Positions 408 through 8,345 of a DNA stretch of 21,122 nt are shown here, piece by piece. The stretch spans positions 1-21,122 of IMG/VR virus record IMGVR_UViG_3300023220_000689; one strand, written 5' to 3'. Position 1 is the first letter of the stretch. The number at the start of each line of letters is the position of its first letter. The notes below the pieces were generated by a model. The model was not told where the DNA came from and did no database searches. It worked only from the letters and a program-made list of their open reading frames with translations. A program made the position numbers and the translations under genes. The DNA comes from a virus.

Positions 408-747
408 AGACTGTACCATACAACTACTGCCGGATGATGAAGTTGAATGTATCATGGTTTTGCATAAAGAATCATTAAAGGAAGGCCCTCCTGGTGTTTC
501 CGGAAGGCTGATGAAAGAATTAGGTCTTCCTGTGCTTAAAATTATACGGGAAGAATTTGAAAAAAACGGGCCTAATTGTGTGTTGGGTATGATGTCATTC
601 TTTACTTGTATCGCCGGAAATGTCATTGCTAATTCAGTTCTAATGGAGGATACAAATACTTCCTGTGAAATGATGAAGAAAGCATTTTGTGTACTTATGG
701 ATTCGTCCCAATCACCATTGCGTGAATTAAAAAAATCACGTTCATGA
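400..747 (+). CDS. Hypothetical phage protein, 115 aa
   Basis: Unknown function. The frame stays open upstream to an ATG at 295, but that part lies inside the preceding gene. I chose ATG 400 because it has an AGAAAGG ribosome site about 7 nt upstream and overlaps the previous stop by 8 nt. The protein is probably helical, with a cysteine- and methionine-rich central stretch (GMMSFFTCIAGNVIANS, about residues 65-82) that could be a buried helix but is short for a confident membrane span. The C-terminus is basic. The final ATGA overlaps the next gene by 4 nt. Nothing in the sequence indicates a specific activity. Confidence 0.7.
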   Translation: MTEDCTIQLLPDDEVECIMVLHKESLKEGPPGVSGRLMKELGLPVLKIIREEFEKNGPNCVLGMMSFFTCIAGNVIANSVLMEDTNTSCEMMKKAFCVLMDSSQSPLRELKKSRS

Positions 748-1313
748 CTTTTAAATTACCAAAATCCAAAAGGATCAAGGTTCCGGCCCCATTGAGTTAC
801 GACGAAACAGGAGCCGCATATATGTTCCCAACCAGCCGAGGCGATATCAAGATAATCGCAAGCTTTGGCGAGGGATGGGAACATGTGTCGGCGTCTTTAT
901 TTTACCGCTGCCCGACATGGGACGAAATGTGCATGGTGAAGGACTTTTTCTGGGGCGAGGAAGACACAGTTATTCAATACCATCCTGCGAAGTCTGAATA
1001 TATCAACTATCATCCTCACTGCCTTCACCTGTGGCGGCCCATAAATAAGGAAATTCTTTGCCCACCAAAAAATTCTAGTCGGGGCCGGTACGGAGAAAGT
1101 GACATGACACGTATTGCCAAAACGATCAGGCTTGTCAGGGCCACAGACGTTATATCACAAAGAGATTTGGCTGAACAAATTGGCATACAGCGTTCGGCCA
1201 TACGCAAAGTAGAAACCGGGAAGTCTGTTGATGCAGAAACAGCGCTGAAAATTATGATATGGCTGTTCCAGGCCGATGAAACCATAACGCCGGGTTCAAA
1301 GGATGGTACATAA
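744..1313 (+). CDS. DUF7694-like protein fused to XRE-type HTH
   Basis: This is a two-part protein of 189 aa. Residues about 45-100 match the phage family I know as DUF7694: GWEHVS, then RCPTWDEM, then IQYHPAKSEYINYHP and CLHLWRP. That family is common in phage accessory operons and its role is unknown. Residues about 121-189 form a compact XRE (Cro/CI-type) helix-turn-helix, with ISQRDLAEQIGI, RSAIRKVETG and a following helix. The HTH part would bind DNA and may act as a small regulator. Translation starts at an ATG coupled to the previous stop (ATGA overlap) without an obvious ribosome site. A second, well-formed start lies inside the frame at 1104. The fusion of these two domains is unusual in my experience. 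Confidence 0.8.
   Translation: MTFKLPKSKRIKVPAPLSYDETGAAYMFPTSRGDIKIIASFGEGWEHVSASLFYRCPTWDEMCMVKDFFWGEEDTVIQYHPAKSEYINYHPHCLHLWRPINKEILCPPKNSSRGRYGESDMTRIAKTIRLVRATDVISQRDLAEQIGIQRSAIRKVETGKSVDAETALKIMIWLFQADETITPGSKDGT
1104..1313 (+). CDS. Possible internal start: standalone XRE HTH, 69 aa
   Basis: Within the DUF7694-HTH gene, an in-frame ATG at 1104 is preceded by GGAG at 1092-1095 with an 8 nt gap, which is nearly ideal. The product would begin MTRIAKTIRLVR, exactly where a self-contained Cro-like HTH domain starts. It would be a 69-residue DNA-binding protein made in addition to the full-length fusion. The ribosome site is visible in the sequence. That both forms are made is an inference. 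The alternative is that the GGAG match is coincidental. Confidence 0.45.
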   Translation: MTRIAKTIRLVRATDVISQRDLAEQIGIQRSAIRKVETGKSVDAETALKIMIWLFQADETITPGSKDGT

Positions 1314-2860: not shown

Positions 2861-3019
2861 CGTGGATTATCGGAAAAGGATGCACAATTAAATTTAAACG
2901 CTAGTGGTAGGCAACAGCCCGGATATGCGGCTGGCTTAAACGTTATGAAGCATGATGCAAGAAATGACAACCGCCAGATACCACACTAACGCCCGCTTAG
3001 GCACGACAGGAGAAAGACA

Positions 3020-3184
3020 ATGCCGAGATGGTTTGACAGAGCAGTGCAGGAAATTGAAGAGGCTTGTGATTCTGGTGAAATTGATAATGCAGAACGCAAT
3101 AAACAGATTGGTGATTTACAGCAAGAACTTCGTGCCGCGGCTGATGAGGCTGGTGAACAAGCCCGAGATGATTATTATAATTAA
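3020..3184 (+). CDS. Small acidic helical protein, 54 aa
   Basis: This short ORF begins MPRWFDRAVQEIEEA and ends ARDDYYN. It has a strong ribosome site, AGGAGAAAGACA directly before the ATG. The product is highly acidic and predicted to be almost entirely helical, with a regular pattern (IEEACDSGEIDNAE, then LQQELRAAADEA). This resembles short phage proteins built around two helices with a 'SGEID' turn, whose function is unknown. A 79-codon frame overlapping it in another phase (2952-3191) has no comparable ribosome site and an implausible basic composition, so I prefer this frame. Confidence 0.7.
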   Translation: MPRWFDRAVQEIEEACDSGEIDNAERNKQIGDLQQELRAAADEAGEQARDDYYN

Positions 3185-3223
3185 ACTTTAACTTTAACGC
3201 CAGGAGCGGCAAAGGAGAATGAA

Positions 3224-3412
3224 ATGAAAATATTTTACTTTAATAAGCTTGGTCTATTTATTTTTAATCAGTGGGTTGGCGGGGGCAGAGACGAGACAGG
3301 ATTTGATCTTTCAATAGTAAATGTTTCTCTTTCAGGGGAGTTTGATGTTGAAATATATTTATCTTTTGTTTTGGCTGGTTTTGGCTTCGGTTTTAGTTGG
3401 TCAACAATTTAA
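3224..3412 (+). CDS. Small hypothetical protein, 62 aa
   Basis: The ATG at 3224 follows AAAGGAG (3211-3217) with a 6 nt gap, an excellent ribosome site. The product is rich in aromatic residues and glycine, with alternating hydrophobic residues (FDLSIVNVSLSG, then IYLSFVLAGFGFGFSW). This suggests an amphipathic beta-structure or a single C-terminal membrane segment. No family is recognised. It is the last gene of the rightward operon and ends 14 bp before the stop of the converging leftward operon. Confidence 0.6.
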   Translation: MKIFYFNKLGLFIFNQWVGGGRDETGFDLSIVNVSLSGEFDVEIYLSFVLAGFGFGFSWSTI

Positions 3413-3426
3413 TACAAACGCTCATA

Positions 3427-3711
3427 TCAATCAAACTTATATGGTACTGGTCTGTAGTGAGTTTTGACACGTCCCCTGAAGAATAATTCTTTCAGGCTTT
3501 GTTTCCAGCCGACAGTTGATCCGTCCCAAGATGAATAGGAAAAAACAGCCCCGTCTTTTCTCTGCCAAAGCATATGGAACCCCCCCGGCCACAAATCAGA
3601 CTTACGACACATAACACGTCCACCATCCAGAAACCACATGGCACACGCCCAAAACAGGCAGTTGCTTTTCTCGGGGTGCCATAGATTGTCTTTGATCATG
3701 TCAGATTGCAC
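3427..3711 (-). CDS. Phage protein of unknown function, 94 aa
   Basis: The product has the pattern LWHPEKSNCLFWACAMW, then GGRVMCRKSD, WPGGFHMLW and LFFRGRVK. I associate this with a small phage family found near lysis genes (SNC...W, GG, GP-H-LW, FRGR), with no known role. It is rich in tryptophan and cysteine and has no signal peptide. The start is ambiguous. A GTG at 3711 overlaps the upstream stop by 11 nt, and an ATG at 3699 lies just after that stop. Neither has a strong ribosome site, so coupled translation is likely. It is the last gene of the leftward operon. Confidence 0.72.
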   Translation of the reverse strand: MQSDMIKDNLWHPEKSNCLFWACAMWFLDGGRVMCRKSDLWPGGFHMLWQRKDGAVFSYSSWDGSTVGWKQSLKELFFRGRVKTHYRPVPYKFD

Positions 3712-3910
3712 GGCCCAGACATTGTGCCAGTTGTTTATAAAGCGCTAAGTGTTGGCGTTCTAACGCAACGTGATCTTTATGCAGTGCGAACATTCCGGGG
3801 CTGACAGGATTAATTACTGCGGGAGTTTCAGGGGGTATCCATATACGATAAGCCGCCGCTCCTGCTAAAATGTTGGCGTTGATAGCGAGGAATAACAGAA
3901 TCCATTTCAT
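3701..3910 (-). CDS. Small membrane-anchored or secreted protein, 69 aa
   Basis: The first about 20 residues (MKWILLFLAINANILAGAAA) form a hydrophobic segment that is either a signal anchor or a cleavable signal peptide. The remainder, about 48 residues, is proline-rich and then helical (HVALERQHLALYKQLAQ). It directly follows the spanin genes, with an ATGA overlap with the o-spanin stop, so a role in lysis or in the envelope during lysis is plausible from position alone. No known family is recognised. Confidence 0.7.
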   Translation of the reverse strand: MKWILLFLAINANILAGAAAYRIWIPPETPAVINPVSPGMFALHKDHVALERQHLALYKQLAQCLGRAI

Positions 3911-5605: not shown

Positions 5606-5890
5606 TTATCCAGACCTGTGTTCAACATTAATGTGATCCTTTTCAATCACAACATTGAAACCATTACCCAATGCAGTCTTGATCTCTTTCGCTATAAGTT
5701 CAACATTATAACAGTGCCATGACTGTAAATTTATTGATGTACCCGCCAGTGTTTTTGGTTTTACAATGGTCATGGATGACACGGTGCAGTCCATGCCATG
5801 CTTGTAAAATACTTCGTTGCAGGCATCCAAGCATTGCAGGATTGTGACTTTCAAACCTTTTAACCGTACGCCGTCCTTAAATTTAATCAT
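5606..5890 (-). CDS. Degenerate M15-like peptidase homologue, 94 aa
   Basis: The N-terminus (MIKFKDGVRLKGLK, then a helix ending EVFYKHGMDCTVSS) and C-terminus (FNVVIEKDHINVEH) match the outline of small phage proteins related to M15 D-Ala-D-Ala carboxypeptidases. Those normally read VTSxxDGxHxxxSLHYxGxAxDLRT in the middle and EKDHIHVE at the end. Here the middle reads LAGTSINLQSWHCYNVE, so the first zinc-ligand histidine and the aspartate are replaced. Only the EKDH element remains. The protein is therefore probably not an active peptidase and may be structural or regulatory. I chose ATG 5890, which overlaps the tailspike stop by 8 nt. Confidence 0.7.
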   Translation of the reverse strand: MIKFKDGVRLKGLKVTILQCLDACNEVFYKHGMDCTVSSMTIVKPKTLAGTSINLQSWHCYNVELIAKEIKTALGNGFNVVIEKDHINVEHRSG

Positions 5891-8345
5891 TTGCGTTGCT
5901 TGATAACCACACATCAACATCTGCATCAGTGACGGTTAGATTTATAACTACGCTGGCCTTATCTATCAACTGTGCTATCGGATTTGATGCCCCAGAATCT
6001 TGCCAACGTACAAATCCTGTATTGGCGTCATTTGGTATAATGCTCATAATTTCTGCAACGGCAACCCCCGCTTGTCCATTCCCTGTCCTTGGAGTTAATA
6101 ACAGATTAGCCCCAGATAGGGACGAGGCAAGACTAAATCTATCTCCGTATTTTTTGGTTACAGTTACCACAGAACTAACGATGGCAACATTGAAAACAGC
6201 CATTCTCACATCTGTTACTCTAATAGAAACTGTTGCTGTTCCGGTTATTCTTGGTTGAGATTGATCTATAGTTGCTGCAAACGGTAATATGAAATTATCT
6301 TCCATTGAAAAATTCATAGGCTTTGCATCATCATTAACAGTTATATTCAAAACTGCTTGTCCTATTGAAAAATTTGCTAAATCTCTTCTAAAGCAAGTAT
6401 TATTTGAAACATCAATAACCTCAGCACCAAAGAAATTAGCTCCTGTTGTACTTTGGTTTTGATCAACTAATACACATATTCCATCATCATGAAATTTATT
6501 ATTCCTGACAATCAATCCGCCAACTTCAACAGCAGTTCCGCCGAGTGACAAGTCATTTGCATCAAGAGAGCTATAAAATATAGACCGAAGAGTTGCATTG
6601 AATACGCGGCTTCGACGTTTAAATGTATTACCTCTAACAATTGCAAAACCGCCGTTATCTACTTGTATTTTTTGGGTTCCGTCTGTAATGAAATTATTAT
6701 TGTGTATATCTACTTCTGAAATAAATTGTACATATATATCTCGATTGCCTCCGAAAGAACCAAAAAATCTATTACCATAAGCAGTACATTCTGTTGATGC
6801 TTGAGTAAACATTATGCCCGTCGATGAAACAGAAGATTCCATTCTATTATTATAAACATTACTTCGAGGAGAAAAATTATTGACTGTAATGCAGCGTTGT
6901 GCGTTTGATGGATCAAGAAATATATTATTATCATATACATCTACGTCCCGAGCATTTTGTAAATAAATACCATACATTTGATTTCTTAAATTACAATCCC
7001 AAATATTACCGCGCAGAATAGTTGTTGGATTTCCTGTTCCAATCAATGTAAAATCACTTGTGTTTATAACTTGGCCTGAATAACCCACCACTGACGCGCC
7101 ATTAATCCAGATAGCTCTCATTATTGATTCCCCTGATATTGAAGAAGAGTCAATTCTATAGATATCAAAATCATTTACAGCAACACCAATAAAAATTGCG
7201 CCATTGCCCGAATGTTCCATATCAATATCATGGATTTTGGGTGATTGAGTATCATAAACTGTGACAAATCTACGAAATGTTGCGTCAATAGCCTGATCAA
7301 AGCTACCACCATGAACCCTCAAATCTTTATTCCCTGGCGTTGGATTAGCTATTGTATTGGTCGGGTCACCAAAAGAAAAGGCAGAGGTTGAAATACTTAC
7401 TGTTACGTCGAATTTATGGTTGCCAAAATCAACTTCCATCCCATCAACAAAAGACGTTACAGAAACTTCCGTAGAAATTATGCTACTTCCTGGATTATAT
7501 CTAATTTTTTTTGGTTTTGATAATGCGGCGGCATATGTATGCATAGCCTGTGCTTTTGTCGTGTTGTCGGCACCGTCAACAAAGCCCCACTGTGAGGATA
7601 ATATTATATCTTTTTCTCTTCTAATCCAACGACCTGTTCCTCCTTCATCAGATGCAAAGGTATTAAAGATATTTACCGTAGCTGTGCTTGATGAATTCCA
7701 AAAGAATCTACCACCGCCTCCATCTCCAATAGTTGTATAGCCTTTAAGTGTGGCCATATCGTTATTTGCAAGCCCGATCTTTTTAAGAGCCGTCATTTGA
7801 GCTATATTAATTGGCTCTATTTGATATTCAACTTCATGCCAATCTGTTCCTATCCGTATTAAGACGACAGGATGTGTCGTTTTTAAATCTTTATTCCCTC
7901 CACGTAGAAATATATTACCACTCCCTGATTGAATTGTAACAACACGGGCTATATTAGCCCCACGAAGGAACAGATATGCTCCGTCGTTAGTCCCAGTATT
8001 GGAAATAGTGTCCAAGCTGTCAGAAGATGCATCGGCTTCTGTATCTACAGTGTGGTGGGAACGTGTGATCGTTATAGAACCACCGCTAATAGTGAGTTCA
8101 GAAGATGTGAATGCAATTGATCCTGCAACAGAATTATTCTGGTCTGGGTCAGTATTTATGGTTTTAGCAAAAGCTGATAGAACGTTGGAATTAATTGATT
8201 CGGCCAAATTTTTAAGTGGGTCGCCTATCTTATCTTTATGTTTTGACCATTTTAATTGATTATCGGCACCAGTAGTTCCATCATCAGGCGGCGGATTTGT
8301 ATTATAGCCGGAAATACTTACTGAAGTATACGGATTGGTAGCCAT
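5883..8345 (-). CDS. Tailspike protein, parallel beta-helix
   Basis: An 820-residue receptor-binding tailspike. Residues 1-60 (with YTSVSISGYNTNPPPDDG and a following amphipathic helix) are a probable virion-attachment domain. At about 195-245 is a motif frequent at the start of spike shafts: ATLKGYTTIGDGGGGRFFW, then GGTGRWIRRE. Residues about 280-640 contain many N-rich turns (YDNNIF, VYNNRM, AYGNRFFG, IHNNNF, VRGNTF, VRNNKF) typical of a right-handed parallel beta-helix, as in pectate-lyase-like polysaccharide-degrading spikes. The C-terminal about 150 residues are beta-rich and probably drive trimerisation. Whether it cleaves a capsule or O-antigen cannot be told. The helix region is markedly AT-rich. 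AAGGAAAC serves as ribosome site. Confidence 0.88.
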   Translation of the reverse strand: MATNPYTSVSISGYNTNPPPDDGTTGADNQLKWSKHKDKIGDPLKNLAESINSNVLSAFAKTINTDPDQNNSVAGSIAFTSSELTISGGSITITRSHHTVDTEADASSDSLDTISNTGTNDGAYLFLRGANIARVVTIQSGSGNIFLRGGNKDLKTTHPVVLIRIGTDWHEVEYQIEPINIAQMTALKKIGLANNDMATLKGYTTIGDGGGGRFFWNSSSTATVNIFNTFASDEGGTGRWIRREKDIILSSQWGFVDGADNTTKAQAMHTYAAALSKPKKIRYNPGSSIISTEVSVTSFVDGMEVDFGNHKFDVTVSISTSAFSFGDPTNTIANPTPGNKDLRVHGGSFDQAIDATFRRFVTVYDTQSPKIHDIDMEHSGNGAIFIGVAVNDFDIYRIDSSSISGESIMRAIWINGASVVGYSGQVINTSDFTLIGTGNPTTILRGNIWDCNLRNQMYGIYLQNARDVDVYDNNIFLDPSNAQRCITVNNFSPRSNVYNNRMESSVSSTGIMFTQASTECTAYGNRFFGSFGGNRDIYVQFISEVDIHNNNFITDGTQKIQVDNGGFAIVRGNTFKRRSRVFNATLRSIFYSSLDANDLSLGGTAVEVGGLIVRNNKFHDDGICVLVDQNQSTTGANFFGAEVIDVSNNTCFRRDLANFSIGQAVLNITVNDDAKPMNFSMEDNFILPFAATIDQSQPRITGTATVSIRVTDVRMAVFNVAIVSSVVTVTKKYGDRFSLASSLSGANLLLTPRTGNGQAGVAVAEIMSIIPNDANTGFVRWQDSGASNPIAQLIDKASVVINLTVTDADVDVWLSSNAND

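Follow-up and report, generated by a model that had tools for sequence, protein, structure and literature searches.

An apparent DUF7694-HTH fusion in a phage operon, best read as two overlapping genes joined by one extra base

The DNA analyzed here, referred to as the window, is the stretch from position 1 to 21,122 of the virus record IMGVR_UViG_3300023220_000689 in IMG/VR. An open frame of 189 amino acids (aa) on the plus strand of the window runs from 744 to 1313 with no interruption. Pfam identifies two domains in this frame, namely, DUF7694 (PF24746) at aa 37-100 (E = 5.1e-28) and HTH_3 (PF01381), a Cro/CI-type helix-turn-helix (HTH), at aa 137-170 (E = 9.8e-7). Both scores exceed the curated Pfam cut-offs: DUF7694 reaches 97.1 bits in the whole frame and 98.8 bits in aa 1-108 (cut-off, 27 bits), and HTH_3 reaches 29.2 bits (cut-off, 23 bits), compared to 29.7 bits in the separate HTH protein of the closest relative. 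A GGAG motif (1092-1095) precedes an in-frame ATG at 1104 with a spacing of 8 nt. A preliminary description of this locus had reported the two domains in a single frame and the GGAG-ATG arrangement, and it was correct on both counts; its "complete" HTH is readable as a 69-aa protein from 1104 but is a generous term for the Pfam model, because only profile positions 10-44 of 55 are matched. The features of the locus are as follows.

744..1313, plus strand: apparent DUF7694-HTH fusion; single open frame, 189 aa; best taken as the product of a frame change
744..1107, plus strand: DUF7694 gene as inferred from the closest relative, L001; frame of 744 to the A run, then next frame to TGA at 1105-1107, with one base of the A run passed over; 120 aa; Pfam match, 84% identity to L001
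1067..1072, plus strand: A6 run, likeliest site of a one-base insertion; A4 followed by different bases in L001
1092..1095, plus strand: GGAG; Shine-Dalgarno-like site serving the HTH gene, spaced 8 nt from ATG 1104; GGGG at the same place in L001
1104..1107, plus strand: ATGA, HTH start overlapping the next-frame DUF7694 stop; same overlap in L001 at 3360-3363
1104..1313, plus strand: HTH gene encoding a 69-aa protein of the Cro/CI DNA-binding type; HTH_3; 37/63 identities with the separate L001 HTH protein

Overlapping stops and starts recur in the operon to which the locus belongs. For the genes at 744, 1632, and 2350, the start codon shares an ATGA with the stop of the gene before; the gene at 2171 has one base in common with the stop ahead of it, and a GGAG precedes the gene at 1632 as well. 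Because these overlaps and the GGAG recur, the site at 1104 resembles any ordinary gene start of the operon. The next two genes, as annotated with Pfam, encode an HNH endonuclease (1303-1635) and a DUF1643 protein (1632-2171).

The closest relative among the best 80 of 142 DUF7694-like viral stretches is L001, a locus in IMG/VR record 3300023443_000553. In a tblastn comparison, the major capsid proteins of the window and the L001 contig are 99.7% identical, the terminases 97%, and the portals 91%; the names of the latter two rest on position and size, and that of the major capsid protein has further support. In L001, the DUF7694 gene (3001-3363) encodes 120 aa and reads KWMIGPVTGIDP at its end, followed by TGA, and the HTH gene starts at ATG 3360 in another frame. 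Used as a query against this contig, the open frame of the window matches in two segments that lie in different frames, one covering aa 1-109 (84% identity) and the other aa 107-183 (53%), and every other gene common to the two records in the same tblastn output stays in a single frame. The HTH proteins of the window and L001 align from residue 1 (59% identity). The ATG proposed in the preliminary description as an internal start is kept in L001, where it starts a separate gene and follows GGGG rather than GGAG. A free HTH product from ATG 1104, likewise proposed there, is very probable given that the homologous ATG opens a gene of its own.

Further copies of the junction were sought in two ways. 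Relatives of the HTH protein were searched for in viral_contigs, where a single-protein query gave none and a query made from an alignment of two sequences gave the same L001 contig only. A DNA pattern specific to the window junction had no match, and a degenerate version of the pattern had one, which is L001. The same HTH gene was found in one relative only; the evidence for the two-gene state is thus this single locus together with the family motif described below. Other parts of the L001 contig differ more from the window. It carries a different gene (3569-3856) in place of the HNH/DUF1643 stretch, suggesting that 1303-2171 is exchanged between close phages. The tail-fibre-like gene of the window (5883-8345) shares only its first ∼243 residues with the contig, at 62% identity, perhaps reflecting a swapped receptor-binding end; the head-side genes are about 84 to 99.7% identical.

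The window retains the expected DUF7694 end one frame over. Read from 1069, one base on, it gives KILVGAGTEKVT and then TGA at 1105-1107. This end is of the same length as that of L001 and, as there, finishes in ATGA; therefore, the DUF7694 protein would be 120 aa long in both. The net difference between the two records is one base, and the insertion is most likely to lie in the A6 run. The C-terminus typical of the family (hydrophobic residues followed by V or VG) is missing from the fusion frame, and the next frame has ILVG at this place. A motif of this kind arose there in 0.0385% of 200,000 base shuffles, a frequency to be read with the fact that the pattern was chosen after the sequence had been seen. 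The DUF7694 and HTH parts of the window both differ from L001 mainly at the third position of codons, as expected if each encodes a protein (first, second, and third positions, 8/11/29 in 324 nt and 17/15/35 in 189 nt, respectively). The 39-nt junction, when read in the next frame, shows an even spread (5/5/6) and lends no support; the arguments for this frame are therefore the motif, the length, and the stop.

The DUF7694 family was surveyed for comparable arrangements in 88 loci, comprising the best 80 of the 142 viral stretches and 8 loci added by a scan of genome_contigs. The preliminary description had proposed looking for C-terminal HTH fusions among DUF7694 proteins; none of these 88 loci has an HTH in the DUF7694 frame, and neither does any of 8 further loci from class searches of genomes. 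Its statement that the two domains are usually separate agrees with the survey. In all 80 viral loci (best 80 of 142), the frame extends no more than 27 aa beyond the Pfam match. Two class searches were positive for DUF7694 in 5 of 369 genomes and in 4 of 385, and their eight new loci end 3-51 aa past the match. A DUF7694 match is present in 42 phage records, and a short stand-alone gene lay under the match in all seven that were opened; BFVD contains a DUF7694 protein of 194 aa (A0A6J5NIV4). After the LHxW core, the 88 loci have 61 distinct tails, and in 84 of the 88 the tail ends in a hydrophobic-hydrophobic-V type motif after a proline pair. The four loci that depart from the pattern, as read from the printed tails, are L001 (WMIG), L027 (RFV), L062, and L090. 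The last of these, from genome_contigs, is longer at its C-terminus, but Pfam detects no HTH family there and nothing in the protein besides DUF7694.

Genes downstream of DUF7694 vary. The DUF7694 gene finishes in ATGA in 30 of the 88 loci (80 viral, the best 80 of 142, and 8 from genome_contigs). A Pfam scan of the downstream gene in 53 loci, a part of the 80 distinct downstream frames in which the longest frame was taken mechanically and may in some cases not be a gene, gave HTH_3 in two (L001 and L066); hence, an HTH_3 neighbor is not the rule. In L061, the next frame matches HTH_5. L066 has a DUF7694 gene at 3300-3686, and the next gene, overlapping it by ATGA, encodes an HTH_3 protein of 128 aa (E = 4.2e-14) with little sequence likeness to the HTH proteins of the window group. 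The order of DUF7694 followed by a regulator thus occurs more than once.

Searches for the function of DUF7694 were made by sequence and by structure. His, Ser, Trp, and Pro residues are invariant in the family alignment, and Cys residues are nearly so. The predicted model (44 sequences; mean pLDDT, 84.9) is a small fold with four strands and one helix. Against the PDB, the model has no match at E ≤ 0.001; its top hit, 2qzi (E = 0.041), is a protein whose function is likewise unknown. A PDB search by sequence finds nothing better than E = 0.24. In a viral structure library, the only matches of the model at E ≤ 0.001 are two other DUF7694 proteins. The term DUF7694 was not mentioned in the literature searched.

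We conclude, with a probability of roughly 0.9, that the locus consists of two neighboring phage genes, a 120-aa DUF7694 gene (744-1107) and a 69-aa HTH gene (1104-1313), which overlap by ATGA and are joined in the record by one extra base. The frames of L001, the end and stop in the next frame, and the lack of fusions among the 88 loci are the reasons why the "internal start" is best taken for the normal start codon of the HTH gene, and the fusion for the result of a one-base insertion. In the window (next frame) and in L001, stop and start overlap and the second gene has a start of its own, the arrangement of a translationally coupled pair. The DUF7694 and HTH genes are probably coupled in this way: ribosomes finishing DUF7694 at 1105-1107 would re-start at 1104, helped by the GGAG. 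The free HTH protein, very probably beginning at ATG 1104, is probably a small DNA-binding regulator of the Cro/repressor-like kind, as its family suggests. The extra base, likeliest in the A6 run, would bring both genes into one frame and thereby create the apparent 189-aa fusion.

Two other explanations deserve consideration. The preliminary description favored a real, selected fusion in which an internal ribosome site also yields the free HTH protein, thereby linking an accessory function with the control of that function. Such a fusion would need the extra base and occurs in none of the 88 other loci, and a long-standing one would be expected to lose the family C-terminus and ATGA stop that the other frame of the window retains. 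The closest relative keeps two genes, and the 8 further genome loci likewise show no HTH in frame with DUF7694. The single uninterrupted frame, the two domains above their Pfam cut-offs, and the well-spaced GGAG are what speak for this explanation, which we regard as extremely unlikely. Alternatively, the A6 run could be a site of +1 frameshifting or programmed slippage, so that one gene would yield both the 120-aa DUF7694 protein and the 189-aa fusion. A +1 shift would bring the reading precisely to the canonical DUF7694 end, and lysine tRNA or RNA polymerase could slip on A6 without mismatch. Against this, the A run is not conserved, being A4 in L001, the relatives showed no conserved site for a change of frame, and runs that support transcriptional slippage are, in one account, often eight bases or longer (PMC3711429). 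Programmed slippage is therefore very unlikely.

If the locus is two overlapping genes, the extra base is either an assembly error or a recent real mutation. Homopolymer-linked single-base errors have been reported to affect ∼1% of proteins in Illumina contigs at 10x coverage, although the platform of the window may differ (PMC3277595); at this rate, one such error among ∼30 genes would be unsurprising. Single, unclustered frame changes are described as likely indel mutations or sequencing errors, with gene overlaps as a further source (PMC3711429). Homopolymer runs of at least six bases number 36 in the window; apart from the A6 run, none was seen to disrupt a shared gene, which argues against homopolymer errors being common in the record. 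The insertion, if real, would be recent, because the end in the other frame is well kept. It is possible, if on the whole unlikely, that the extra A is both real and tolerated; the lineage would then make a DUF7694-HTH fusion plus free HTH protein from 1104, an early-stage fusion created by one frameshift across ATGA. If the base is real, the locus would offer a minor illustration of fusions originating from overlapping genes. It also carries a caution, in that a one-base change at an ATGA overlap can make two genes look like a fusion with an internal start.

Compared with known systems, the locus is best read, as far as its sequence goes, as a commonplace case of two overlapping genes within a phage operon. 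DUF7694 proteins (PF24746; PHROG 7839) are stand-alone phage proteins, and the window has their core, WEHVS...RCPTWDEM...HP...CLHLWRP. Unlike the family, the record as given lacks the C-terminal motif in frame and runs into the HTH, with the motif in the next frame. Among phage regulators of the Cro/CI type, the HTH protein, with its HTH_3 match in both the window and L001, is a small 69-aa member with nothing notable about it. The GeneTack classes (PMC3711429) include overlapping coupled pairs and frame changes caused by indels. The window resembles these in that stop and start are co-located in ATGA and both parts have separate relatives; it differs in that its frame change joins two genes instead of breaking one.
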